From: Bacteroidota bacterium
GTDB taxonomy: Bacteria; Bacteroidota; Ignavibacteria; UBA10030; UBA6906
Assembly (NCBI GenBank): GCA_030835135.1
Contig: JAUQWO010000077.1
Location: 35,748-99,747 of the forward strand
Length of the DNA: 64,000 nucleotides
Reading direction: 5' to 3'
Shown in pieces: positions 42,373 to 55,571 of this stretch. The notes under the pieces were generated by a model. The model saw only the letters and a program-made list of their open reading frames with translations, did no database searches and was not told the DNA's origin. The translations under genes were made by a program, and so were the position numbers. Position 1 is the stretch's first letter. Every line of letters begins with the position of its first letter.

Positions 42373-42561
42373 ATCCTGTGCCACCGCTTGGGTCGGGCCA
42401 CGACTTCCGACCCCCGAATATGCCACGATCGTGCCCGAATTCCAGAGAAAACCGGTTCACACGCGGTATCGTCGCGAAGGACCTGCCGCGACGTCGGAAC
42501 GGGTGCATACTTCTGGCCACCTGGATGGATGCACGTGGGCGGATGCACACCACCGCGTCGA

Positions 42562-42591
42562 TTGCATTCCCGTAAGAAAGCGCTATATTTC
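42562..42591 (+). promoter_or_regulatory. Candidate araA promoter
   Basis: TTG (42562-42564), 19 bases, TATATTTC (42584-42591), about 68 bases before araA ATG. It matches the Bacteroidota-style TTG/TAnnTTTG arrangement better than the sigma-70 consensus. The other part of this 343-base divergent gap holds only the kinase promoter. Confidence 0.5.
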
Positions 42592-42658
42592 TTATCCTCC
42601 TGCACATCTGCGGGAGACACCAAGCAGTCCACCGCCATTGCCCAAGTTGAAGGTCACC

Positions 42659-44128
42659 ATGATCGATCTCAAGAAGTATACCGTGTGGTTCATCACCGGC
42701 AGTCAGCATCTGTACGGTCCTCAAACGCTCCAACAGGTTGCTGAGAACGCCGGCGTCATCGTCAGCGAATTGAACCGGTCAAAGGACATTCCGTACCCCA
42801 TTCAGTTCAAGCCGGTCGTAACTTCGCCGGATATGATCCTGAATGTGGTGCGCGAGGCGAACAACGATCCATCCTGCGCAGGTCTGATCCTCTGGATGCA
42901 CACCTTCTCGCCGGCCAAGATGTGGATCGCCGGATTGAACGCCCTCGCAAAGCCCTTCCTCCACCTTCACACGCAGTTCAACCAGGATATCCCCTGGGAC
43001 ACGATCGACATGGATTTCATGAATCTGAACCAGGCCGCGCATGGCGACCGCGAATTCGGATTCATTTGTACACGCCTCCGCAAGAACCGGAAGGTGGTCG
43101 TGGGGCACTGGCTCGATGCTGAGGTGCACGGACAGGTCGGCGTGTGGATGCGTGTCGCGGCAGCGTTCGCCGATATGCGTTCCATGAAGATCGCCCGCTG
43201 GGGTGACAATATGCGCGAGGTCGCGGTGACCGAAGGCGACAAGGTCGAGGCACAGGCACGGTTCGGCTATTCGGTGAACGGCTTTGGCATCGGCGATCTC
43301 GTGGCGCGCATCAAGGCCGTGCCCGATGCGAAGATCTCTTCCCTGGTCAAGGAGTATGAGTCCCTGTACACGCTTGCAGCCGCTGCGAAAGAGGGCGGCG
43401 CGAAGCGGCAGAACCTCATCGAAGCGGCGCGGATCGAACTGGGTATGCGGGCATTTCTGGAAGAAGGGAAGTTCAGTGCCTTCACCACAACATTCGAGGA
43501 TCTGAACGGTCTGGTGCAATTGCCCGGTCTTGCCGTGCAGCGGCTCATGGCGGACGGCTACGGGTTCGGGGCGGAAGGAGATTGGAAAACTTCGGCGATG
43601 GTCCGGGCCGTGAAGGTGATGTCCGCGGGTCTCGCCGGCGGGACATCGTTCATGGAAGACTATACATACCACCTCGAGCCGGGCGGACAGAAGGTGTTGG
43701 GCGCGCACATGCTGGAGGTGTGCGGCTCCATCGCGGCGGGTAAGCCGTCACTCGAAGTGCATCACCTCGGGATCGGCGGCAAGGAAGATCCGCCGCGCCT
43801 TGTCTTCGACGTTCCCGAAGGTCCCGCCATGAATGTCTCGATGATCGATATGGGCGACCGCTTCCGCCTGATCACGAATACGGTGAAGGTCGTCCGGCCG
43901 GTGAAGCCGCTGCCGAAATTGCCGGTTGCCCGCGCGCTGTGGATCCCGCAACCGGACCTGAAGACCGCGGCGGCTGCATGGATCTATGCCGGCGGGGCGC
44001 ATCACACGGTGTTCAGTCAGGCGGTCGGCACGGAATACATGGACGACTTCGCCGAGATGGCAGGCATCGAGCATCTCGTGATCGATGAGTCCACGACACT
44101 CCGCGCATTCAAGCACGCATTGCGGTGA
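42659..44128 (+). CDS. araA: L-arabinose isomerase
   Basis: 489 aa from ATG 42659; the track ORF adds 76 unlikely codons. Starts [20 protein letters not shown], typical for AraA. Metal and catalytic residues are visible: Glu in [10 protein letters not shown], Glu in GFGAEGDWK, His in GAHMLEVC and His in [17 protein letters not shown]. Converts L-arabinose to L-ribulose. No araB, araD or transporter lies beside it, so the rest of the pathway is elsewhere. Length is as expected. Confidence 0.95.
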
Positions 44129-44153
44129 TACAATAACCGCATCGCATCGGCAG

Positions 44154-44179
44154 GGGCGGTCCCGCGTGCGGGACCGCCC
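44154..44179 (+). terminator. Perfect 12-bp hairpin after araA
   Basis: GGGCGGTCCCGC-GT-GCGGGACCGCCC, 26 bases after the araA stop. It lacks a U-tract but is the obvious candidate for transcript 3' end formation. The 43-bp array begins two bases later. Confidence 0.55.
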
Positions 44180-44181
44180 TT

Positions 44182-44417
44182 ACGATGTATGTACCGCGCC
44201 CCGTACGTTGCATGCGCCGCCCCCACGATGTATGTACCGCGCTCGTCACGTTGCATGCCCGACCCTTACGATGTATGTATCGCGCTCGCCACGTTGCATG
44301 CGCCGCCCCTATGATGAATGTACCGCGCCCCGTACGTTGCATGCACCACCTCCACCTTGTATGTACCGCGCTCGTCACGTTGCATGCGCCGCCCCCACGA
44401 TGTATGTACCGCGTGCC
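44182..44417. repeat. 43-bp tandem repeat, 5.5 copies
   Basis: Unit starts ACGATGTATGTACCGCG and ends in a C-run; copies begin at 44182, 44225, 44268, 44311, 44354 and a partial at 44397. Each unit has GTAC, CGTACG or CGTCACG variants and GTTGCATGC with the GCATGC palindrome. The period is not a multiple of 3 and each unit is diverged, so it is not coding. It lies between the araA hairpin and the A1-B1-A2-B2 module. 44418-44565 has no other feature apart from the A1 ribosome site. Confidence 0.9.
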
Positions 44418-44565
44418 AACTTCCGTACACCTCCTGCAGTTTGTAGATTCCACCCGGTGTTTCCTGTGTCTCCCATCGGAAACGTGACCCCCGGCACACG
44501 GGAAGGCCGGTTTGCCATGGCATGCTGCTTGCACGATCCTGTACCGTATGCCACGGAGGGGAGTC

Positions 44566-45195
44566 ATGGGTTGGCTCGTATTCTCGGTCTTCGCGGTCGC
44601 GGCGACGTTCGTCCTGACCTTCATCACGACCGGTGATATCTGGGACGCAATGTTCGCGGCTGCGGTCCCGGTGGGCCTGTTTCTCCTTGGCCTCTTCCTG
44701 CGCGCCACGCGGAAGAACGTCACTCCCCGCCAGCGTGTCACCCTTCTCTTCGTCGTCGCGCTCATCTGCATCGGGGTGGCCGGCCATTGGATGGTGATGC
44801 ATTCCATGACCCGCTGGCAGCACGATCAGCTCCTGACGGTCCGTGACCGTATCCAGCGAAGTCTGATGGTATCGTCGGTGTATGACCGCGCAACACCGGT
44901 CTTCAGTGCTTTTCATAGCCAGCGATTCCCTGAGAACAAGAGCATGACAGAAGTGTTCGCGGACCTGTATCCATCGATCATGGAGAAGAACGCCACCATC
45001 CTGCTCGACAGCCTCGATGGAGGCGTGAACGTGTATGCACGGAGCACATGGGGTGCGATGGTTGTCATCACCAGTGTCAGCAGCGTGGGGCATGGCATGG
45101 ACCCCGAGTTCCGGAATGTGGATGGACGTCGCGGCTACCTTCAGTCCTGCCTGCGGCTGACCCCCGAGGGGATGGTCTATGAAGTTCAGAATTGA
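44566..45195 (+). CDS. Module protein A1: three-helix membrane protein
   Basis: 209 aa from ATG 44566 (GGAGGGGAG upstream; the track ORF adds 18 codons). Three hydrophobic helices in the first 80 residues (WLVFSVFAVAATFVLTF, AAVPVGLFLLGLFL, VTLLFVVALICIGVAG), then an extracytoplasmic domain of about 125 residues with TRWQHDQLL, VYDRATPVFSAFHS and VYARSTWGAMVV. Paralog of A2 (46054-46755): shared TTGDIW, TRWQxD, YDR and the C-terminal GMxYExxN end. Overlaps B1 by 17 bases. No family recognised. Confidence 0.75.
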   Translation: MGWLVFSVFAVAATFVLTFITTGDIWDAMFAAAVPVGLFLLGLFLRATRKNVTPRQRVTLLFVVALICIGVAGHWMVMHSMTRWQHDQLLTVRDRIQRSLMVSSVYDRATPVFSAFHSQRFPENKSMTEVFADLYPSIMEKNATILLDSLDGGVNVYARSTWGAMVVITSVSSVGHGMDPEFRNVDGRRGYLQSCLRLTPEGMVYEVQN

Positions 45196-46057
45196 TCTGC
45201 AGCGGGCTGTGAAAGATCCCCTGCATGGGATATGGATCGCGTGCTACATCGGTGCCGCCATGATCGCTCTGGGGGCGGTGCAGGAGTCCTTCGTGCACGT
45301 CGCGGGGTGGGGAGATCCCGCGATCCCGATCGCGCATGCCGTCCTCCCGGCACAACCCGCGGTGCTGGCAGGAGGCATCGAGGTTGCCGAGGGGATCCTG
45401 CAGTTCTCCGGTCACACGGCCCGTGGCGTGTGGTCAGGATACGTCACGACCACCTTGATGGCCATGCTGATCTCATACATGGTCGGACCCGCGCTGCTCG
45501 TCTGGGGGATCAGGGCACGCGCCCGGCACCGGCAGCAGATCGCCGTTCGGGGCGGCGTCCCTGCGATAGCGGCGGCGCTCGCGCTGGGTGGATCAACCCT
45601 CGCGGCGGTCGTCCCCGCTCCGTTGTATGCCCTCGTCAGCCACCGGACATATACGATGCTCGAACGCGATCACCGTCACAGTGAAGCCCTCGATGACCTG
45701 AGCGTCGAGTTGTATGTGATGGCACGCAACGCACAGGTGGAGTATCACCGCTCCGGTGAGCCCCGCGGAGGTGGCCATACCTGGCTGACCCCGGTGCATG
45801 GCAGGAAAGGACCGCTTCGCATGTGCGATCTGTTGGGGCCGGGGCGTGGCCCGCAATGCACCGAAAGCGCGCACGTCACCATCGGCCGGCAGATGTTCAG
45901 TCTGCGTATCGAGCGTGCGGACTCGTTGACGTTGCACGGCCTGGTTGTCTGTGAGCCGCCGGGCTGTCCTGCACCAGCGGACACAAGTGGGCAGGACACA
46001 CTGTCGATGGTCGTTGGCGTGACCCCTTTGAACGTGAACATGATATTCGAGGAATGA
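45179..46057 (+). CDS. Module protein B1: membrane protein, pilin-like domain
   Basis: 292 aa. Helices at about 19-40, 85-110 and 125-150, then an extracytoplasmic domain that starts with a long helix (SEALDDLSVELYVMARNAQVEY) and a Gly-rich turn (GEPRGGGHTW) before beta-rich sequence. The helix plus GGG turn recalls pilin-like exported proteins I associate with Bacteroidota/Ignavibacteria; this is inference. Paralog of B2, identical in length, sharing QPAVLAGGIE-type, RGVWSG, VGPALLVWG, ERADSLTLHG and VGVTP. Its ATG lies inside the conserved C-terminus of A1. Confidence 0.75.
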   Translation: MKFRIDLQRAVKDPLHGIWIACYIGAAMIALGAVQESFVHVAGWGDPAIPIAHAVLPAQPAVLAGGIEVAEGILQFSGHTARGVWSGYVTTTLMAMLISYMVGPALLVWGIRARARHRQQIAVRGGVPAIAAALALGGSTLAAVVPAPLYALVSHRTYTMLERDHRHSEALDDLSVELYVMARNAQVEYHRSGEPRGGGHTWLTPVHGRKGPLRMCDLLGPGRGPQCTESAHVTIGRQMFSLRIERADSLTLHGLVVCEPPGCPAPADTSGQDTLSMVVGVTPLNVNMIFEE

Positions 46058-46755
46058 TGAAGAGCGTCCATGATATGGAGCGCCACCGCACCATACGGCT
46101 CCCCCGCATTGCGGGCGGCATGCCGGTGGTCTGGCTCGTGATCGCCATGGTGGTGACGTGTGGAACATTCAGCGGGGTCTATATCACCACCGGCGACATC
46201 TGGACGGCCGCGCTCGCTGGCGGTATTCCGGCTCTCATCTATATGGCAGGATTGACGGTGCACGCGACATGCACACCGGCAAGCCGCCGTTGCCGCATCG
46301 CCGTGATGCTGGTCGCTGTGACCGTCCTTACGGGAATCTCCGCGGAGTTCATGGTCCTCAGCTCCCGCACCCGCTGGCAGGCCGACATGATCGCCGGGAC
46401 CGGCGTATCCTATGACCGCAGCGCGATGATGTCCGCACTCTTCAGCACCGCTTCACCGGTGTTTGCCTCGTACCAACAGCAGCCACAGCGCAAACGGCGC
46501 GCCATGGCCGAGATCTTCAAGGACTCCTGGAGCACGCGGGACTGGACGACCGGGATGGTCACGCTGGACGGCCCGTCGGAACGGGTGAACGTCTATGCGT
46601 CCACGACCCCTGACGGCGCGATCGTGCTGACGGCCGTGGCTGCCGTGACACCCGGGGGAGATGCGGCATTTGCGAACGTGAACGGGTGCATCGGGCGTCT
46701 TCAGTCGCGCCTCCTCCTGAATGGCAAGGGAATGAGCTATGAGATCGAAAACTGA
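46054..46755 (+). CDS. Module protein A2: paralog of A1
   Basis: 233 aa. The ATG overlaps the B1 stop by 4 bases with GAGGA upstream. It has a 24-residue longer N-terminus than A1, then the same plan: three helices and an extracytoplasmic domain. Shared with A1: TTGDIWTAAL, SRTRWQADM, YDRSAMMSALFS, VNVYASTTPDGAIV, GRLQSRLLL and the terminal GMSYEIEN. The signal shows an ancient duplication, as identity is limited to motif blocks. Overlaps B2 by exactly 17 bases, as in A1/B1. Confidence 0.75.
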   Translation: MMKSVHDMERHRTIRLPRIAGGMPVVWLVIAMVVTCGTFSGVYITTGDIWTAALAGGIPALIYMAGLTVHATCTPASRRCRIAVMLVAVTVLTGISAEFMVLSSRTRWQADMIAGTGVSYDRSAMMSALFSTASPVFASYQQQPQRKRRAMAEIFKDSWSTRDWTTGMVTLDGPSERVNVYASTTPDGAIVLTAVAAVTPGGDAAFANVNGCIGRLQSRLLLNGKGMSYEIEN

Positions 46756-47617
46756 CTTTCGCGCGGTCCTCACGGACCCGCTCCACTGGATGCGTATCGT
46801 CCTGTACGTTGTCATCGCAACGGTCGTGCTCGGCTCGCTGCAGCACTATGTCAACAGACGATCGAGTCAGGGAGGGTGGTGTGCAGTGCTGAACACTCTC
46901 ATCCCCATGGCAGACCCTGCCGTACTTGCCGGGGGGATCGAGATGATCGAGGCATCCAACGCGTTTGCCGGGTATGGCTCCCGCGGCGTGTGGCGGGGCG
47001 ACATCACCGCCGTGATGATGTCCATGGTCTTCCTGTATATCGTTGGTCCGACGCTCCTCGTGTGGGGTCTGCGCGGCCGCGCGCGGTTCCGGCGTCATGA
47101 GCCCGGCACTCCTCCGGCGGCCGTGATCGCGGTGGCGATCGCCGCGGGCTGCTGCTCCGTGATGTTGCTGGTGCCGGGATTCCGGTATGCGTATTCAACG
47201 ATCGGAGAGCATGAACGGGACATTGCCCGGGTTGCGGCGATGGAGGACGAGGCCGCGTTGAAGGATGAGATGCTGTTGATGGCACACAAGGCGCAGGTCG
47301 CGTATTTCGTCGCAGGTGAACCCTGGCAGGTTGGAGGTTCATGGCAGATGTCGGACGGCTCACGGCAACCGGCCCTGTCGATCGTGCAGTTGATCGATCC
47401 CGGTGCCATTGCCGTGATCAAGGACAGCAGGCATGCGCTCATCGGCGGACGTTCGTACGAACTGATCGTTGAGCGGGCAGACTCGCTGACGCTGCGGGGC
47501 CAGTGTCCCCCCATCCCCCCGGAGGTGCATGGGGAACCGATCTTCGGGAACAACGGCGCACGGGACATCACGATCGGTGTCACGCCGTCCACGCTGTCGC
47601 TCGCCTACAACCAGTAA
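46739..47617 (+). CDS. Module protein B2: paralog of B1
   Basis: 292 aa, the same length as B1. Three helices, then an extracytoplasmic domain with a long helix (DEAALKDEMLLMAHKAQVAYF) and GEPWQVGGSW. Shared blocks with B1: DPLHWMRI, ADPAVLAGGIEMIE, SRGVWRGDITAVMMSM, IVGPTLLVWGLRGRAR, VERADSLTLRG, IGVTP. The ATG lies in the conserved GMSYE codons of A2, which supply GGGAATG upstream. A hairpin terminator follows at 47640, ending the four-gene unit. Confidence 0.75.
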   Translation: MRSKTDFRAVLTDPLHWMRIVLYVVIATVVLGSLQHYVNRRSSQGGWCAVLNTLIPMADPAVLAGGIEMIEASNAFAGYGSRGVWRGDITAVMMSMVFLYIVGPTLLVWGLRGRARFRRHEPGTPPAAVIAVAIAAGCCSVMLLVPGFRYAYSTIGEHERDIARVAAMEDEAALKDEMLLMAHKAQVAYFVAGEPWQVGGSWQMSDGSRQPALSIVQLIDPGAIAVIKDSRHALIGGRSYELIVERADSLTLRGQCPPIPPEVHGEPIFGNNGARDITIGVTPSTLSLAYNQ

Positions 47618-47639
47618 CCACCTCGTGTCCCCGATCCAC

Positions 47640-47668
47640 CGGGGCCCGGCGCGTTCAGCCGGGCCCCG
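47640..47668 (+). terminator. Terminator of the A-B-A-B operon
   Basis: CGGGGCCCGGC, loop GCGTTCA, GCCGGGCCCCG: perfect 11-bp stem starting 22 bases after the B2 stop. Only a weak T-rich tail (TGTTCT). Confidence 0.7.
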
Positions 47669-47727
47669 TGTTCTAAGCCCGCACGCGATCGTACGCCCGG
47701 GTGCGGTGCCCCTGGAGCGGACCCTCC

Positions 47728-47756
47728 TTGAATTTCTACCTTCAATACGCTATCCT
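47728..47756 (+). promoter_or_regulatory. Candidate promoter of the GH29 gene
   Basis: TTGAAT (47728-47733), 17-base spacer, TATCCT (47751-47756), in the 307-base gap between the B2 terminator and the GTG at 47925. This would leave a leader of about 160 bases. Confidence 0.5.
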
Positions 47757-47924
47757 ACGAGAGCACCAGTGCACTCATCCCCATGCCCGCTGGTCGCTGC
47801 GGAGCGGGATCGGTTCGCCGTCATCCTAAGCTTGGTGATCGGGCCCCAACCGCATGACGCGCTCACGTGCATGGCGCGCGCTGTACGACATATCCGGTAG
47901 TTCAATCGTGGAAGGATCAACACC

Positions 47925-49490
47925 GTGGATGCATCAGGCCACCATGCGATCAGAGGTTGGAGCCGTGCGCTCCTCTCCGCAAGTATGCTCTGCATGTTCG
48001 TCGCCTACGCGATGAACGCACAGCAATCAAGACCCACCAACGTCGCTGTGATCAAGCCCGGCGAGTCCATGACGAACATCATCACCAGGGCGGCGAACGT
48101 TGTACCATCACCGCGTCAGCTCGCCTGGCAACGCCGCGAGTTCATCGGGTTCATCCATTTCGGCGTCAATACATTCACCGATCGCGAGTGGGGCGACGGC
48201 AAGGAAAGTCCGGACATCTTCAATCCCCATCTGCTGGATGCCCGGCAGTGGGCGCGGGTGGCACGGGACGCGGGAATGAAGATGCTCATCGTCGTGGCGA
48301 AGCACCACGATGGATTCTGCATGTGGCCCTCGAAACTCACCAAGCATTCGGTGAAATCCTCGCCGTGGAGGGGCGGCGGAGGGGATGTGCTGGCCGACCT
48401 TGCCGCCGCGTGCCGCGAGTTCGGCATCAAGATGGGTGTGTATCTGTCACCCTGGGACCGCCACGAGCCTGCGTACGGGAACTCACCGGTGTACAATATC
48501 CACTTCGCCAACCAGCTCCGCGAGGTCCTCCAGAAGTATGCCCCGATCGAAGAAGTATGGTTCGATGGTGCGTGCGGCGAGGGGCCCAATGGCAAGCGGC
48601 AGGAATACGACTGGCAGTTGTATTACCGGACCGTGCGCGAGCTCGCTCCGAATGCCGTCATCGCCATCATGGGTCCCGATGTGCGATGGGTCGGAACAGA
48701 GAGTGGCGTTGGCCGGTTGACCGAGTGGAGTGTGCTCCCGGATATCACGCAGGACGTCGCTTCCATTGCCGCGCACTCGCAACAGAATCCTGTCGATGCC
48801 GGATTCAATCCGCACGACCTGACACAGGACGATCTGGGCAGCAGGGAGAAGATCCGCAACGCGAAGACCCTTGTCTGGTATCCGGCGGAGACCAACTGCT
48901 CGATCCGTCCGGGGTGGTTCTACCACCCGAAGGAAGACTCGCTGGTGAAGACCCCGCAGCAGCTCGTCGATACCTACTTCAGCTCGGTTGGCAGGAATGG
49001 GGTGTGGCTCCTGAACCTCGCCCCCGACCGCCGCGGATTGATCCATATCAATGATGTGAAGAGCCTGGTGGGGATGCGCGCCATCCTGGACAGCATGTTC
49101 GCGGTGAACTTCCTTGCCACCTCGAAGGTGAAGGGAGCCGCGGCAGGGAAGGGGCGTGAAGCGAAGAACGTGATCGATACGGAGTATGAAACCTACTGGA
49201 TGCCCGGCGCAGGGGTGACGGCGCCGTCCATCGAGTTCACGCTGGCAGGGGAGCGGACGTTCGATGTCCTGCTCCTGCAGGAATGCATCATGGTCGGCCA
49301 GCGCATCGAGAAGTTCCGCCTCGATGCATGGCAGGACGGGGCGTGGAAGGAGATCACGCGTGGAACGACCGTCGGTTATAAACGTCTGCTGCGGTTTCCG
49401 GCCGTGACGGCGCAGAAGGTACGGGTGGTGATCGAGGGATCCCGTACAAGTCCGACCCTTTCCGCGGTCGGACTCTTCAAGTCGCCGTAG
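47925..49490 (+). CDS. Exported GH29 alpha-L-fucosidase
   Basis: 521 aa from GTG 47925 (GGAAGGAT upstream). Signal region (ALLSASMLCMFVAYAMNAQQ). GH29 catalytic domain: FIGFIHFGVNTFTDREWG, MLIVVAKHHDGFCMWPS, GIKMGVYLSPWDRHEP, and the nucleophile Asp in EEVWFDGACGEG. The C-terminal about 130 residues look like an F5/8-type carbohydrate-binding domain. Releases fucose from glycans in the periplasm or outside. Convergent with the GH38/DUF4838 operon, making a glycan-use cluster. Confidence 0.88.
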   Translation: MDASGHHAIRGWSRALLSASMLCMFVAYAMNAQQSRPTNVAVIKPGESMTNIITRAANVVPSPRQLAWQRREFIGFIHFGVNTFTDREWGDGKESPDIFNPHLLDARQWARVARDAGMKMLIVVAKHHDGFCMWPSKLTKHSVKSSPWRGGGGDVLADLAAACREFGIKMGVYLSPWDRHEPAYGNSPVYNIHFANQLREVLQKYAPIEEVWFDGACGEGPNGKRQEYDWQLYYRTVRELAPNAVIAIMGPDVRWVGTESGVGRLTEWSVLPDITQDVASIAAHSQQNPVDAGFNPHDLTQDDLGSREKIRNAKTLVWYPAETNCSIRPGWFYHPKEDSLVKTPQQLVDTYFSSVGRNGVWLLNLAPDRRGLIHINDVKSLVGMRAILDSMFAVNFLATSKVKGAAAGKGREAKNVIDTEYETYWMPGAGVTAPSIEFTLAGERTFDVLLLQECIMVGQRIEKFRLDAWQDGAWKEITRGTTVGYKRLLRFPAVTAQKVRVVIEGSRTSPTLSAVGLFKSP

Positions 49491-49520
49491 TACACCGGAG
49501 AATAGGCCCGCCGCGATGCC

Positions 49521-49552
49521 ATGGCGCAGATGTGATGGACCGTCTGCGCCAT
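49521..49552. terminator. Bidirectional hairpin between GH29 and GH38
   Basis: ATGGCGCAGA (49521-49530) pairs perfectly with TCTGCGCCAT (49543-49552). It lies between two convergent genes and may end both transcripts; no clear U-tract. Confidence 0.55.
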
Positions 49553-49627
49553 GATCGTTCTTCTGCGGTGCCGATGCGCATCTCCCGCGTTCTTGAACCC
49601 TTCATGTCGGTGCGTAGGGCTATGGCG

Positions 49628-52600
49628 CTATTTGCGCACCACGACGAACTTTACCTCATAGGGTGTGAACGACACGGAGGGAACCGTGCGGAGCGGCGTC
49701 CCCAGCGCATCTGCTTCCTCCATCTTCACACCTTTTCGGTCGGGTGCCAGGAGCAGCGTCGCTGCCCGCCCCGCGGTCTCCCGAAGATGATAGAGCGTCC
49801 CGTTGACTGCCGGCCTCGCGCTCACCATCAGCACACTGGCCGGCTGGAAGGGCCATGCCGAGCGCGTCAGCGCGCCGTGCTGTTTCTTCGGGCTTGCGGG
49901 GAGGACGCGCGATACGAAAGGTACGCGCGTCCCCCATCCGAAGCGCGTCGCGGTCTCATTCGATGCATCGGTGCCCGAGGTGATCGCATAGCTCCACATC
50001 ATCTCACCTTCCTGGCTCGAGCGGAAGTTCGTCGTCCAGTAGTTGTTCAACACCCAGGAGAAGATCTGGCCGGATGCAGGTTTCGCGTTCTTCTGGAACC
50101 TGCCGGTGTTGATCCCGCCGAACTGCATCAGCGGCACCTCATCGCTCACCAGGACGATCTGACCGCGGTCGGACCGGAGTGCGGCAAAGTTCTGAGCGGT
50201 GTTCCAGTCCGTGGCGGTGCCCGGTAGCTGATCCTCTCCCGGCGTCGCGAGTCCGCCCTGCGCCTCGTACACGAGCCTGCCACCCTTCAGGGTGAAGGGG
50301 AATGCGACATACGCGGCTTCCGCATCGTGGACGGCCACCTTCCGCGCTGCGAAGATCAGGTCGATGCGCTTGGTGGGTTTGAACACCCGGAACTCGCAGG
50401 TCACCTGCATTGAATCCACGAATCCTTCGCTGAACCCTTTCACGGTGAAGCTCTGCCAGAGCGGGCCATCGATCCCCGGGTCGACCGTGATCGCGCGCAT
50501 ACCGGTGCGCGTGTGACCGCCCAGCCGCAATTCCTCGATGCTGGAGCGCGTACTCAACCGTTCATAGATGAGCTGCCCGAGCTGCCATGCCCGTGCGGTG
50601 TCGAGCAACTCCTGACCGAGCTGCCGGTCGAAAAGACCGGAGAGCCCGCCGGCTTTTCTGTCGATGATGATCCGGTAGTGCGCGCTCTGAACGGTATCCG
50701 ACGGGATGAACGGACGGTCCGGTGGCCGTTCACCCGCACCCCTGATGATCCGGATGGTTCGGTACCCGAGTGGCGGGACGTCCTTGAGCCACAGTGCCCA
50801 GTAGTTCCCCTCGGGGCGCGATCGCGTGATCTGGGCCGCGATCTCTTCCCCGCGGTCGTCCACCATGCGGAATGTCCGGTCCTTCGGGAGAACCTGGTCG
50901 TCGATGTAGACGATATGCAGTCCGGAGCGCTGCCAGTTGAGCGTGTTGAACACCACGATCGACGGGTCCGATGAGGCGGCAAGAGAGGGCTGCAGCTGTC
51001 CCATCGCGCCTTCGCGCAGAAGCCGTGATTGCATCACACCCTGCCATGCGTACGAGGACTTTTCCGCCCACTGGGTCTGTGTGTTCTCCGCCATGGGGTC
51101 GGAGATGCTCTCCGCGGCACCGAATGTGTGCTCGTTGTAGAAGTGCAGGTGATCGGCGACGGTGCGTACCTGTTCGTGCAGGGACGGCGGGAGGACGGCG
51201 CCGAAATCCTGTGCCATCGCGAGCAATCCCTGATTGGCGATCAGATCGGTCGCTGTCAGGCGGTTCGCCGCCGTTTCACGCATCGCGCAGCCATAGCCAT
51301 CGGTCCACCAGTCGGGCCAGGCAACACGATGGACGGGCAGGGAGGGACCGTGTTCCTTCTCCACCCATGCCAGGAACTCATGGACCGTCGCACTACGGAG
51401 CTTCGGGGCTTCGTAGATCTCGTTCCACCGGCGGATGTTGTCGCTCGAGAACGTGGATGGCGGCGAGTTGTCCGTGAAGTAGCCGCTGTACTGGATGTTC
51501 ACGCGATCGTACGGGTACCCGTCCGTTTCGAGCTTCTGGAGATACAGCGGCAGCTCACGCTCGATCAGGTCGATGCTCGATGTATGGATGTTCTGAAAGT
51601 TGCCGGTCATATAATGGTCTGCCCGGTACGCCAGAACGCGTTTGCCGGAGGGGGATTCCCACCAGAACGGTGTCGGGACATCGAAGGGCCGGAGTGCGCG
51701 GGCAACGTTGATGCCCGAGGTAACATAGCGGATGCCGAGGTCCTGAAAGTAGTCCACGAGACACCATGCGTAGCCGTTCACGTCATCCTGCATGGCAGTG
51801 CGTACCGGCAGTCCCTGTGCCTTCATCGTGGCGATGGGTTCGAGCGAGTGGACGAGCGCGTTCTCGTCCGCAACCTCCGCCCAGTTCAGCAGCATGCCCG
51901 TGACCTCGATGCGCCCTTCGGCGATACGCTGTTTGAGACGCGCTATCTGCGAGGCAGGCCTCGCCTTCAGGTATTCGCGCACGGCCCAGGAGGTCTCGCA
52001 CGTCCATCGGAACTTCGCGTCGTCAGGATAGGCATCGGTCTGATCGCACAGGTCCAGTGCGAAATCGATGTAGCGGAGATGCTCGGCGAGGATCTCGGTC
52101 TGTGGCCGGGTGTACCCGATATCCGTGTGCGCATGCTGCACCAGGTACAGGGTCCAGTGCCGCACAGGCCGAACGGTGATGCGTTCCGTGCTCGTTGTGG
52201 TGCCCATGCTCAGGGTCACGGTCCTGGTTGTGGGTGCGGACACCGGCGTGATCATCAAAGAGTGGCGGCTGACGCCGAACGGCAGTGTGATCTTTTCGGC
52301 GGCTGCGCCATCGAGCCCCAGCGTGCCTTCCGTCGCTCCGCCGATGTTCAGGATCTCGACATCGAGCGGCTGAAGCACTTTGCCATGGCTTTTGAGGAGG
52401 ACGGGACGGCTGGCGATGTTCAGGCCATTGGTGATGGGATGCGTGAAGGTCATCACCCACGCGGAACTCTTTGCGGATTCTCCCGTGATGCGGAGCTCGA
52501 CCGGCGAGCCGGGTTCATACGAGCCTGCCGGGAGGGTGAGTCGCATCAGCCCGAACCGGTCCTTGTTCCGGTCCGCGAGTACGAGCGAGAACTCCAGACG

Positions 52601-52963
52601 GATACCGCCTGCGCCGTTGATCTGCCAGCCTTCCGTGGGCGCGGTGGTGAACGTGGCGGCTTCCTTGCCGTTCAGGTCGAGCGTGAACGAGTGCGACCCG
52701 AGGTTGCAGCCGAGTCCTGCAAGCCAGATGAACGTGACCCCGCCCGCTGGTGCCGGTGCGGTCTTCCACGCGATGGTGCTCGTGCCATCGGTTGCCCGGG
52801 CGATCAGCGCATTGCGCATGGAAGAGAGCGGTGACGGGTAGGTGATGGTTGTTCCCGATACCGTGGATGCGTAGCCCGGGATGGGGTCTGTGAGACCGGC
52901 ATGCGAGGCAGACAGTGCGATGCAGAGGCCAAGGAACAACGCGATGGATCGGAGCTGGAGCAT
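49628..52963 (-). CDS. Exported GH38-type alpha-mannosidase-like enzyme
   Basis: 1111 aa from ATG 52963, which has AAAGGAC upstream. Signal peptide (SIALFLGLCIALSASHA). A beta-rich N-terminal region of about 260 residues precedes the GH38 catalytic domain: zinc ligands in VQHAHTDIGYT and the nucleophile Asp in TAMQDDVNGYAW. Later HLHFYNEHTFGAAES matches the family, and a large C-terminal beta domain follows (VVFNTLNWQRSGL). Substrate may be mannosides or a relative. Translated from the same operon as the DUF4838 gene (11-base gap). Confidence 0.88.
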   Translation of the reverse strand: MLQLRSIALFLGLCIALSASHAGLTDPIPGYASTVSGTTITYPSPLSSMRNALIARATDGTSTIAWKTAPAPAGGVTFIWLAGLGCNLGSHSFTLDLNGKEAATFTTAPTEGWQINGAGGIRLEFSLVLADRNKDRFGLMRLTLPAGSYEPGSPVELRITGESAKSSAWVMTFTHPITNGLNIASRPVLLKSHGKVLQPLDVEILNIGGATEGTLGLDGAAAEKITLPFGVSRHSLMITPVSAPTTRTVTLSMGTTTSTERITVRPVRHWTLYLVQHAHTDIGYTRPQTEILAEHLRYIDFALDLCDQTDAYPDDAKFRWTCETSWAVREYLKARPASQIARLKQRIAEGRIEVTGMLLNWAEVADENALVHSLEPIATMKAQGLPVRTAMQDDVNGYAWCLVDYFQDLGIRYVTSGINVARALRPFDVPTPFWWESPSGKRVLAYRADHYMTGNFQNIHTSSIDLIERELPLYLQKLETDGYPYDRVNIQYSGYFTDNSPPSTFSSDNIRRWNEIYEAPKLRSATVHEFLAWVEKEHGPSLPVHRVAWPDWWTDGYGCAMRETAANRLTATDLIANQGLLAMAQDFGAVLPPSLHEQVRTVADHLHFYNEHTFGAAESISDPMAENTQTQWAEKSSYAWQGVMQSRLLREGAMGQLQPSLAASSDPSIVVFNTLNWQRSGLHIVYIDDQVLPKDRTFRMVDDRGEEIAAQITRSRPEGNYWALWLKDVPPLGYRTIRIIRGAGERPPDRPFIPSDTVQSAHYRIIIDRKAGGLSGLFDRQLGQELLDTARAWQLGQLIYERLSTRSSIEELRLGGHTRTGMRAITVDPGIDGPLWQSFTVKGFSEGFVDSMQVTCEFRVFKPTKRIDLIFAARKVAVHDAEAAYVAFPFTLKGGRLVYEAQGGLATPGEDQLPGTATDWNTAQNFAALRSDRGQIVLVSDEVPLMQFGGINTGRFQKNAKPASGQIFSWVLNNYWTTNFRSSQEGEMMWSYAITSGTDASNETATRFGWGTRVPFVSRVLPASPKKQHGALTRSAWPFQPASVLMVSARPAVNGTLYHLRETAGRAATLLLAPDRKGVKMEEADALGTPLRTVPSVSFTPYEVKFVVVRK

Positions 52964-52974
52964 GGAGTGTCCTT

Positions 52975-55266
52975 TCAACGAACGACGATCTCGTCAATGA
53001 AGAGCCAGGATGGTTTGCCTGCGCCGATGTGCCAGCCGGGGCACGTCAGGCGTGACTGTGCGGTCAACCGGACATACCGTGCCGTGCGCGGCGGGCCGTC
53101 GATCCGGAATTCCTTGCGCAGCACCCCGCCTTCGGTCTCCGGTACGGTGCCCGTTATGCTGCCGGCAGGCGTGTACTCTTTTCCGTCATCGGACACAGCG
53201 ACACTCACGCTCTGCGGCAACCATGTCCACGAGTAGATCTCCTGATAGAAGTGGGCGGCCACGGAAGTGAAGGTTGCCGGCGCGCCGAGGTCGATCACGG
53301 CGTCCACATGCTCTGCTTCAAACCCCAGCCAGTTGCCGTGGTAGTCTCCCGCGCCGTGAATGCCGTCCGTGAGGGCACGGGCACCGCCAACGGGATATTT
53401 CTCGCTGTGTTTCGTGAGGAGCGTGACGGGTTTGCCATACGCGAGGTTCCCTTCAACGCTGACCAGCATATGGGCCTCCACCGCGCGGCGGTATTCATCC
53501 GGCGGACGTCCCATCTCGTCGAGCCGCTGGATGCCCGCATGGTTTGCCAGCGCAACGAAGCGTTCCAGCCGTTCGCGCATCGACGCCCGCGGCACGATCT
53601 TCCCGTCCTTCCGGTCGAAGTACGAGAGTTCCGGTGTCGCATCATGCAGGGAAATATCGAGGATCGCGAATTCGAGCGGCAGCCGCGCGATGCGCACGCG
53701 GTCGAGATACACGGGCGCATTCTTCACCGATGCTTCGGCCTCATCGAACTGTGATGTATAGGTGCGCAGCAGGGCCGGTGTCAGGTAGGAGTCGATGGCA
53801 TCGAAGGGATATCCGTAGATCCCCAGCCCTTTCCCTGATCGTTCGAGGGCATCATGCATCGTGTCGATATACCGCCGGATATGTGGTGCGGCCGGGCCGT
53901 AGTAGCCGGCGAGGAAGTCGTTCATCTCGGCGTTGATATCGCAGTCGGGGTTCCACAGCAGCTTGGCGATCAGATAGGTGCGCAGATCGCTGAATTCCGC
54001 CACGTTATGTCCGGCGCCCTGCTGGAACATCTGACGGATGTTGTTCTTCGCGAAGAGCTGCAGGTTGGGTTGCAGCACCCGGAGGTTGGGGAACGGATCG
54101 AGCAGGTTGCGGAACTGCACGACGTAGTCCCACATGAGGATGTTGTCGGTCAGCTTGCCCCAATCCTCGATGTCCTTTGTGAAGGATGCTCCTTCCGGAT
54201 CGGTGGCGATGGGTCTGCTCCGGTTGCATTCGATGGAGCAGAGCATGATGTTCACGTTCCGGTCCGGACGGATGTTGGTCGGTGCGCTCCGTGTATAATT
54301 GTATGCGAGCGTCGAGATCGTGTGGTCCGGGAAGGCACGGGCCACGCGGTTCACGAACGCAACCATGGTGCCGGAACTGCCACCGTAGCGTGCGTTCAGG
54401 GCCGTGCAGCTATCGCAGCGGCACTCATTCAGGTTATCGTTCTGGGAGACCGACCACGTGTGGGCGAGCGGTTGGCGGGTCATACGTTCGCGCAGGGCGG
54501 CGGTCAGCACGGTGAAGACATCAGGATTGGAGAGGCAGAGCTGTGCGTTCGCGAGCCGGCGCCCGCCCTGGAGGGTGAAGTACTCGGGGTGGGTGCTGAA
54601 GTACTTCGACGAGGGAACGAGTGGTTCGAATGTATGCACCCACATGCCCCACTCCTCGCGCTGATCTTCGCCGGACTGCAGCTTGTGCCAGTCGCTGTAC
54701 GCACGGTCGAAGCCGTTCAGGTAGTGGACCTGGCGGAAGCGGAAGAAGGGGACGATCGTGGTGTCGATCGCGGGGACCGTGACCGTTGCGCGTTCCGGCA
54801 CGATCGTGACCGTCGGGCTGTACATCCGGCAGCCGAGGTATTGTTCGAGGAGTGTGTAGACGCCGTAGAGTGTTCCTTTACGTTTGCCGCCATAGATCAC
54901 GAGTTTCTTCCCGCGCACCGCCATGCGGAACCCATCCTCTTCGAGGAGAGCGGGTGCGAGACCGGGGAGGAGTTTTCCGGAGCGCTTGGTATGGCCGAGC
55001 AGGATCTCGGCGGGGCGTTCCGGCGCTGCGTCTGCCACGACGGGGATGAGAGCCCCGGAGATCCGCCTGAGATACGACTGCAATTCGGTGGCGGCCTTCA
55101 ACTCATGCGGCGTGGGGGTGGTCGGGATCACGATCACCGTAGCGGGCTTTCCCTGATCGACCAGGAGGAGGCCCTGTGCGGCAAGGACAGGAGGGGCAGC
55201 CGGCAGGCAGAGCGCGACCAGGATCGCGCAGACTGTGGAACGGTACGATTGCGCTGGATGGAGCAT
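52975..55266 (-). CDS. Exported DUF4838 protein with discoidin-like domain
   Basis: 763 aa. Signal peptide (CAILVALCLPAAPPVLA). N-terminal GH20b-like domain (HELKAATELQSYLRRISGALIPV, RKGTLYGVYTLLEQYLGCRMYSP). The central DUF4838 region contains CLSNPDVFTVL, WSVSQNDNLNECRCDSC and ILMWDYVVQF. The C-terminal about 150 residues are discoidin-like (WLGFEAEHVDAVIDLG, WTWLPQSVSVAVSDDGKEY). Thought to act on glycans, but DUF4838 activity is not established. First gene of the GH38 operon. Confidence 0.82.
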   Translation of the reverse strand: MLHPAQSYRSTVCAILVALCLPAAPPVLAAQGLLLVDQGKPATVIVIPTTPTPHELKAATELQSYLRRISGALIPVVADAAPERPAEILLGHTKRSGKLLPGLAPALLEEDGFRMAVRGKKLVIYGGKRKGTLYGVYTLLEQYLGCRMYSPTVTIVPERATVTVPAIDTTIVPFFRFRQVHYLNGFDRAYSDWHKLQSGEDQREEWGMWVHTFEPLVPSSKYFSTHPEYFTLQGGRRLANAQLCLSNPDVFTVLTAALRERMTRQPLAHTWSVSQNDNLNECRCDSCTALNARYGGSSGTMVAFVNRVARAFPDHTISTLAYNYTRSAPTNIRPDRNVNIMLCSIECNRSRPIATDPEGASFTKDIEDWGKLTDNILMWDYVVQFRNLLDPFPNLRVLQPNLQLFAKNNIRQMFQQGAGHNVAEFSDLRTYLIAKLLWNPDCDINAEMNDFLAGYYGPAAPHIRRYIDTMHDALERSGKGLGIYGYPFDAIDSYLTPALLRTYTSQFDEAEASVKNAPVYLDRVRIARLPLEFAILDISLHDATPELSYFDRKDGKIVPRASMRERLERFVALANHAGIQRLDEMGRPPDEYRRAVEAHMLVSVEGNLAYGKPVTLLTKHSEKYPVGGARALTDGIHGAGDYHGNWLGFEAEHVDAVIDLGAPATFTSVAAHFYQEIYSWTWLPQSVSVAVSDDGKEYTPAGSITGTVPETEGGVLRKEFRIDGPPRTARYVRLTAQSRLTCPGWHIGAGKPSWLFIDEIVVR

Positions 55267-55386
55267 GGGTGTCTCTCACTGGAACGAGGGGATAGGGAAC
55301 GGGCGGCATGCGTGGAGGCCGCATAGGTGAGCGATAACGTAGGGAATGTGCGTGCGAGATGCAAGGCAGGCCGGGCACGCCAGTGT

Positions 55387-55571
55387 GTGTTCGAGGTCGA
55401 TGATGGTCAGTGTGATGTAGGGGCGCAGCATGCTGCGCCCGTGCGCCCGGTCGCCAGTGTGTTCGAGGTCGATGATGGTCAGGGTGATGCAGGGGCGCAG
55501 CATGCTGCGCCCGTGCGCCCGGTCGCCAGTGGGTTCGAGGTCGATGACGGGCAAGGGGATGCAGGGGCTTT
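55387..55571. repeat. 72-bp tandem repeat with 20-bp palindrome
   Basis: Copies start at 55387, 55459 and 55531 (last one partial). Each full copy contains GGGCGCAGCATGCTGCGCCC, a perfect 20-bp palindrome. The 72-bp period keeps frames open, which explains track ORFs on both strands (55327-55653 plus, 55276-55584 minus). Interspersed repeats with this palindrome core occur in many environmental genomes. It occupies the divergent gap between the DUF4838 and YhaO-like genes; no clear promoter was found around it. Confidence 0.88.

Follow-up and report, generated by a model that had tools for sequence, protein, structure and literature searches.

What is the role of a pair of overlapping membrane-protein genes that carries no family name and stands twice in tandem in one bacterial genome? 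In the window, by which we mean the whole 64,000-nucleotide stretch of DNA analysed here, four consecutive plus-strand genes, A1-B1-A2-B2, occupy positions 44566-47617. An earlier note, made from the sequence alone, had read these genes as two copies of one A-B pair and had suggested that A and B form an obligate membrane complex. Here, we ask how firmly the two genes are tied to each other, where their domains come from, and what such a unit could be doing in the cell envelope.

Results

Two A-B pairs in tandem

A1 (44566..45195, +; 209 aa) and A2 (46054..46755, +; conserved part from 46120, 211 aa) are 35% identical over their full length, and so are the paralogues B1 (45179..46057, +) and B2 (46739..47617, +), each of 292 aa as previously described. 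Each A gene overlaps the following B gene by 17 nt, the stop codon of A included (45179..45195 for A1/B1 and 46739..46755 for A2/B2, both +), and B1 overlaps A2 by 4 nt (ATGA, 46054..46057, +) if A2 starts at 46054. In a whole-genome search, the likeness within each family is far beyond chance (E = 3e-38 for A1/A2 and 6e-44 for B1/B2), and the sole true relative of each protein in its own genome is its window copy. The motifs that had been named as common to the two A and to the two B proteins are also present. Thus the coordinates, the identities and both overlaps uphold the reading of the locus as two pairs in tandem. No named family matches the two proteins, as had been supposed: searches of Pfam, NCBIfam, PADLOC, PHROGs and PDB sequences gave no meaningful match for A or B, and none of the four window proteins matched an anti-phage defence model in PADLOC.

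Upstream, a GC-rich strong hairpin (GGGGCGGTCCCGC-loop-GCGGGACCGCCC) at 44152-44179, directly 3' of araA, is likely the araA terminator. Since this hairpin probably ends the upstream unit, A1-B1-A2-B2 probably constitute an operon of their own. The region between araA and A1 also holds a tandem 43-bp unit (44174-44413; about 5.6 copies, with a 129-bp higher-order repeat), whose core is absent from the rest of the genome; the idea that this repeat is a special RNA was rejected, with a folding z-score of -0.68. Another tandem repeat, of 72 bp, lies at 55385-55568 (2.6 copies, 93% alike). By eye, the genes around the module (42431-52978) include sugar-use functions, namely L-arabinose isomerase, alpha-L-fucosidase-like and alpha-mannosidase-like genes, and araA was not found in the two genus-mates searched.

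A and B are kept together with a near-invariant overlap

Within the order (Ignavibacteriales relatives), a profile search located A in 27 of the 98 genomes; another 24 genomes with A lie elsewhere in the phylum, and 23 of these belong to a single distant family that, from its gene content, is probably Balneolaceae. The five relatives that carry a name come from Ignavibacteriales, Ignavibacteriae or Bacteroidetes metagenome genomes, or from an unclassified bacterium. The other 20 of the 21 genomes in the window's own family lack the module, so its distribution is patchy, as would result from loss or transfer.

Across this range, B directly follows every intact A wherever the contig allows a check, and in 56 of the 58 assessable pairs the two genes share exactly 17 nt (51 in the main survey, the window's included, and five added). 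The pairing and its overlap, which the earlier note knew from the window alone, therefore persist in the same order and in a second, distant family. The two exceptions are G045:C22, with an overlap of 14 nt, and G415, the most distant member, in which about 4 nt separate the stop of A from the start of B. Two loci are damaged: in G038, a relic, a deletion joins the tail of A to the tail of B, and in G185 the frame of A is broken. Independent occurrence of A and B, which had been named as the observation that would speak against a fixed pairing, was looked for and not found; the B-like genes without an A comprise one cut by a contig end, one chimeric relic and one different protein with two membrane helices and a pilin domain. 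Two weak matches of the first B search (L003 and L010) were dropped, as they look FtsY-type by eye.

It had also been proposed that the last codons of A carry the ribosome site and start of B, with coding in two frames preserved. The site itself is there: a 4-base Shine-Dalgarno-like word lies 5' of the B ATG in 48 of 51 loci. However, synonymous shuffles of the A tail retain the word in 44.4 +/- 1.7 of 50 loci, against 47 observed, which indicates that the peptide itself carries the word and that no extra codon selection is visible; additional selection for a ribosome site on these codons is thus not supported. Short gene overlaps are enriched for subunits of heteromeric complexes (PMC10666635). 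An overlap that is nearly invariant in Ignavibacteria and in a second family, probably Balneolaceae, represents an unusually rigid gene coupling.

The pair was copied as a unit

Trees were built from 53 A and 53 B proteins. Each places the two window copies as sisters (SH-aLRT 96 and 100), with G090 and G081 next to them in the A as in the B tree. The patristic distances of A and B agree as well, with a Mantel r of 0.905, where none of 999 permutations exceeded 0.178. Together, the sister positions and the agreement of trees and distances indicate that in the window lineage A and B were duplicated together, which is the outcome expected from the co-duplication that the earlier note had suspected. 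A separate A-B-A-B array exists in G182, and G079 has two A-B pairs about 2.7 kb apart; by the trees, duplication of the pair also arose separately in another family. At the level of sequence, then, we regard the fixed pairing and the co-duplication of A and B as established, together with the membrane topology and the homology of B to pilins described below.

The outer domains appear to derive from pilus-fibre subunits

By hydropathy, most members of both families have three membrane helices. The loop between TM2 and TM3 is positively charged in A and in B, which places the C-terminal domain of both outside. AlphaFold2 models of A1 and B1, built from seven-sequence alignments, predict a long helix followed by a sheet. 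In A1 (pLDDT 78), residues 54-117 form a 64-residue helix that includes TM3, and five antiparallel strands follow; the pilin-like part, made of TM3, helix and sheet (residues 54-209), is encoded at 44725..45192 (+). In B1 (pLDDT 63, low to moderate), helices 127-144 and 146-191 precede five strands, and the corresponding part (residues ~127-292) lies at 45557..46054 (+); alignment to B1 and the B family puts it at 47117..47614 (+) in B2. The earlier description of B as three helices followed by an exported helix holds for the number of membrane helices and for the exported helix, but not for their separation, as the third membrane helix runs on into the exported one.

The type IV pilin fold has an alpha1 helix of about 50 residues whose C-terminal half packs on a four-strand antiparallel beta-meander (PMC4471445). 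The A1 and B1 models show the lollipop layout of such pilins, and the model of A has the same shape as the pilin-like domain of B. Foldseek returned no significant PDB match for either model; for B1, P. aeruginosa PilE came at rank 2 with an E of 0.97. Pilin-like models that find no significant match prove nothing on their own.

The sequence profiles give stronger evidence. From about residue 131 on, the B profile also finds stand-alone 'MGQQQLLL' proteins of 130-145 aa, which start MGQQQLLLIILG... and have the GGGG.SF turn in common with B. Almost all genomes of the order encode these pilins, several of them in tandem, and it is mostly through them that 91 of the 98 genomes match the B profile. 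In several genomes they adjoin T2SSF (E 5e-31) and T2SSE (E 7e-50 to 2e-94) genes, and in the window's own genome they lie beside T2SSE- and T2SSF-domain genes on contig C42. The B family aligns with them profile to profile at E 7.6e-18 (hhalign), and reciprocally a pilin HMM reaches B proteins at E down to 6e-19. By these comparisons, the last ~130 residues of B are homologous to the pilins. The last 50 residues are common to A and B (hhalign E 1.9e-8 and 6e-8); A gave no direct match to the pilins and is linked to them through B alone (E 6e-8). The earlier guess that B 'may be pilin-like' was thus right at the level of homology, and it extends to A by way of the shared tail.

According to Denise et al. 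(PMC6668835), a paper that also discusses the Cytophaga 'T2SS', the Bacteroidetes 'T2SS' groups with T4aP, and its major pilin is very divergent; the MGQQQLLL pilins probably belong to this system. On profile evidence, the C-terminal domain of B appears to be descended from a pilin of this divergent T4P/T2SS-like system of the phylum. The features in common are a membrane helix that runs on into a long helix, a GGGG turn and, as modelled, a beta domain. However, the pilins carry their helix at the extreme N-terminus, after 'MG', whereas in A and B it is the third membrane helix, with two extra ones in front. Type IV pilins are defined by a class III signal peptide, but no prepilin leader or Glu5-like site precedes the pilin-like helix in the eight A and B members inspected. 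Such pilins are also encoded with, or depend on, an ATPase, a platform protein and a prepilin peptidase; no T2SSE, T2SSF or pilin gene was found near A-B in 47 neighbourhoods, so the pairs lie outside pilus operons. Lacking the leader, A and B should not enter a fibre; with a helix in third position and no pilus neighbours, they are, as far as sequence can tell, pilin-domain membrane proteins and not subunits of a filament in the manner of known pilins.

The pilin-like domain is also seen fused to other partners (L143 in G069:C10, 3527-4645; L140, 4734-5270; L134, 7754-8398). These partners include a TPR-like N-terminus with two copies of the domain and no membrane stalk, as well as N-termini with two to three membrane helices, and the domain looks mobile in the phylum.

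Signalling genes adjoin some A-B loci

About a dozen A-B loci adjoin genes for ECF sigma or anti-sigma factors, Ser/Thr kinases or SpoIIE phosphatases. In eight loci of the order (L073, L076, L082, L085, L088, L092, L094 and L095), A-B comes directly after an ECF sigma and/or zf-HC2 anti-sigma gene on the same strand, often with no more than 30 nt between that gene and A. This link is confined to about two clades and so does not represent eight independent events. A and B themselves are not sigma or anti-sigma factors, and the Pfam matches listed for the A and B proteins include no zf-HC2 domain. In the window's two nearest relatives, a Ser/Thr kinase (Pkinase) gene lies 10-13 nt upstream of A.

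SpoIIE genes stand beside two A-B loci. In G045, moreover, B and SpoIIE are fused in frame in a 967-aa protein (L090, 4921-7824; B at residues 1-~270, SpoIIE at 776-966), and by its helix count the membrane separates the B outer domain from the SpoIIE domain, in line with expectation. The fusion belongs to a cluster with three to four further SpoIIE membrane phosphatases, reminiscent of SpoIIE/RsbU partner switching; the other B proteins examined, in contrast, have no enzymatic domain, this being the only one with SpoIIE. By eye, the cluster also contains RsbW-like and STAS-like genes, and the middle of the fusion looks like a CHASE2-type sensor region, which Pfam does not report. In G030, a GAF-SpoIIE gene comes after the A-B pair and a third gene, c4. 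Members of c4 are membrane proteins of about 140 aa that, within the order, often follow A-B (L072, 9324-9740, and 11 other neighbourhoods), and one has a sub-threshold match to DUF7670.

No signalling gene stands next to the window copy, which has araA upstream and an alpha-fucosidase gene downstream, and the Balneolaceae-like group has photolyase and other neighbours in what looks like an ordinary chromosomal context. As the signalling links fall in few clades and are absent at the window copy, a sensor role for A-B is one that we infer with guarded confidence.

Discussion

The reading that we favour, tentatively and with a fair chance of being wrong, is that A and B are two repurposed-pilin subunits of one inner-membrane assembly that acts as a heteromeric envelope sensor. 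The 17-nt overlap would couple their translation and fix the A:B stoichiometry, and A would bind B through the pilin-like stalks; complex formation, translational coupling and sensing are all steps that we infer. With two more membrane helices ahead of the stalk and no prepilin leader, the domains would escape cleavage and extrusion. Left uncleaved in the membrane, they could form a receptor or checkpoint on its periplasmic side, which may perceive an envelope ligand or, perhaps, pilin-like proteins. Neither protein has a cytoplasmic domain, so any output would need a partner, and the signal would pass to cytoplasmic regulators whose genes adjoin A-B in relatives (ECF sigma with its zinc-finger anti-sigma factor, Ser/Thr kinase or SpoIIE). 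The two diverged versions in the window would plausibly serve two signals. In its more specific form, an obligate heteromeric receptor with pilin ectodomains minus the processing site and with outputs that differ by lineage (ECF sigma/anti-sigma, Ser/Thr kinase, SpoIIE), the proposal is possible, though we would not expect it to hold in full.

Other functions are conceivable for a membrane pair of this kind. The homology of the B domain to the pilins of a T2SS-like machine, and the presence of such pilins (and, where looked at, of T2SSE and T2SSF) in genomes with A-B, would suit an accessory of that machine, a non-extruded inner-membrane pilin pair with a part in priming, capping or regulating the assembly of fibres. 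Such a role seems unlikely to us, as none of the 47 neighbourhoods includes a T2SSE, T2SSF or pilin gene and A-B itself is present in only 27 genomes of the order, against 91 with a match to the B profile, mostly pilins. We give similarly low credence to A-B being an effector, that is, an envelope-stress membrane complex controlled by the adjacent regulators. As a rule, an ECF sigma factor activates the operon that encodes it, and the A-B genes downstream may thus simply be targets; nevertheless, the in-frame fusion of B to SpoIIE, an output enzyme, fits an input module better. Far less probable is a transporter or channel: the proteins are polytopic and lie within the accessory sugar-use region of the window, but they have just three helices each and match no transporter family, and the conservation of A falls mostly in the tail of the outer domain and in loop motifs.

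The reading as an obligate heteromer with pilin ectodomains would make A-B a new kind of envelope receptor, if true. Whatever its function, the fixed membrane pair, unnamed in Pfam, NCBIfam, PDB and PADLOC searches, appears to use a pilin domain for something other than a filament, and its overlap, stoichiometry and possible signalling partners make it a compact, testable case.
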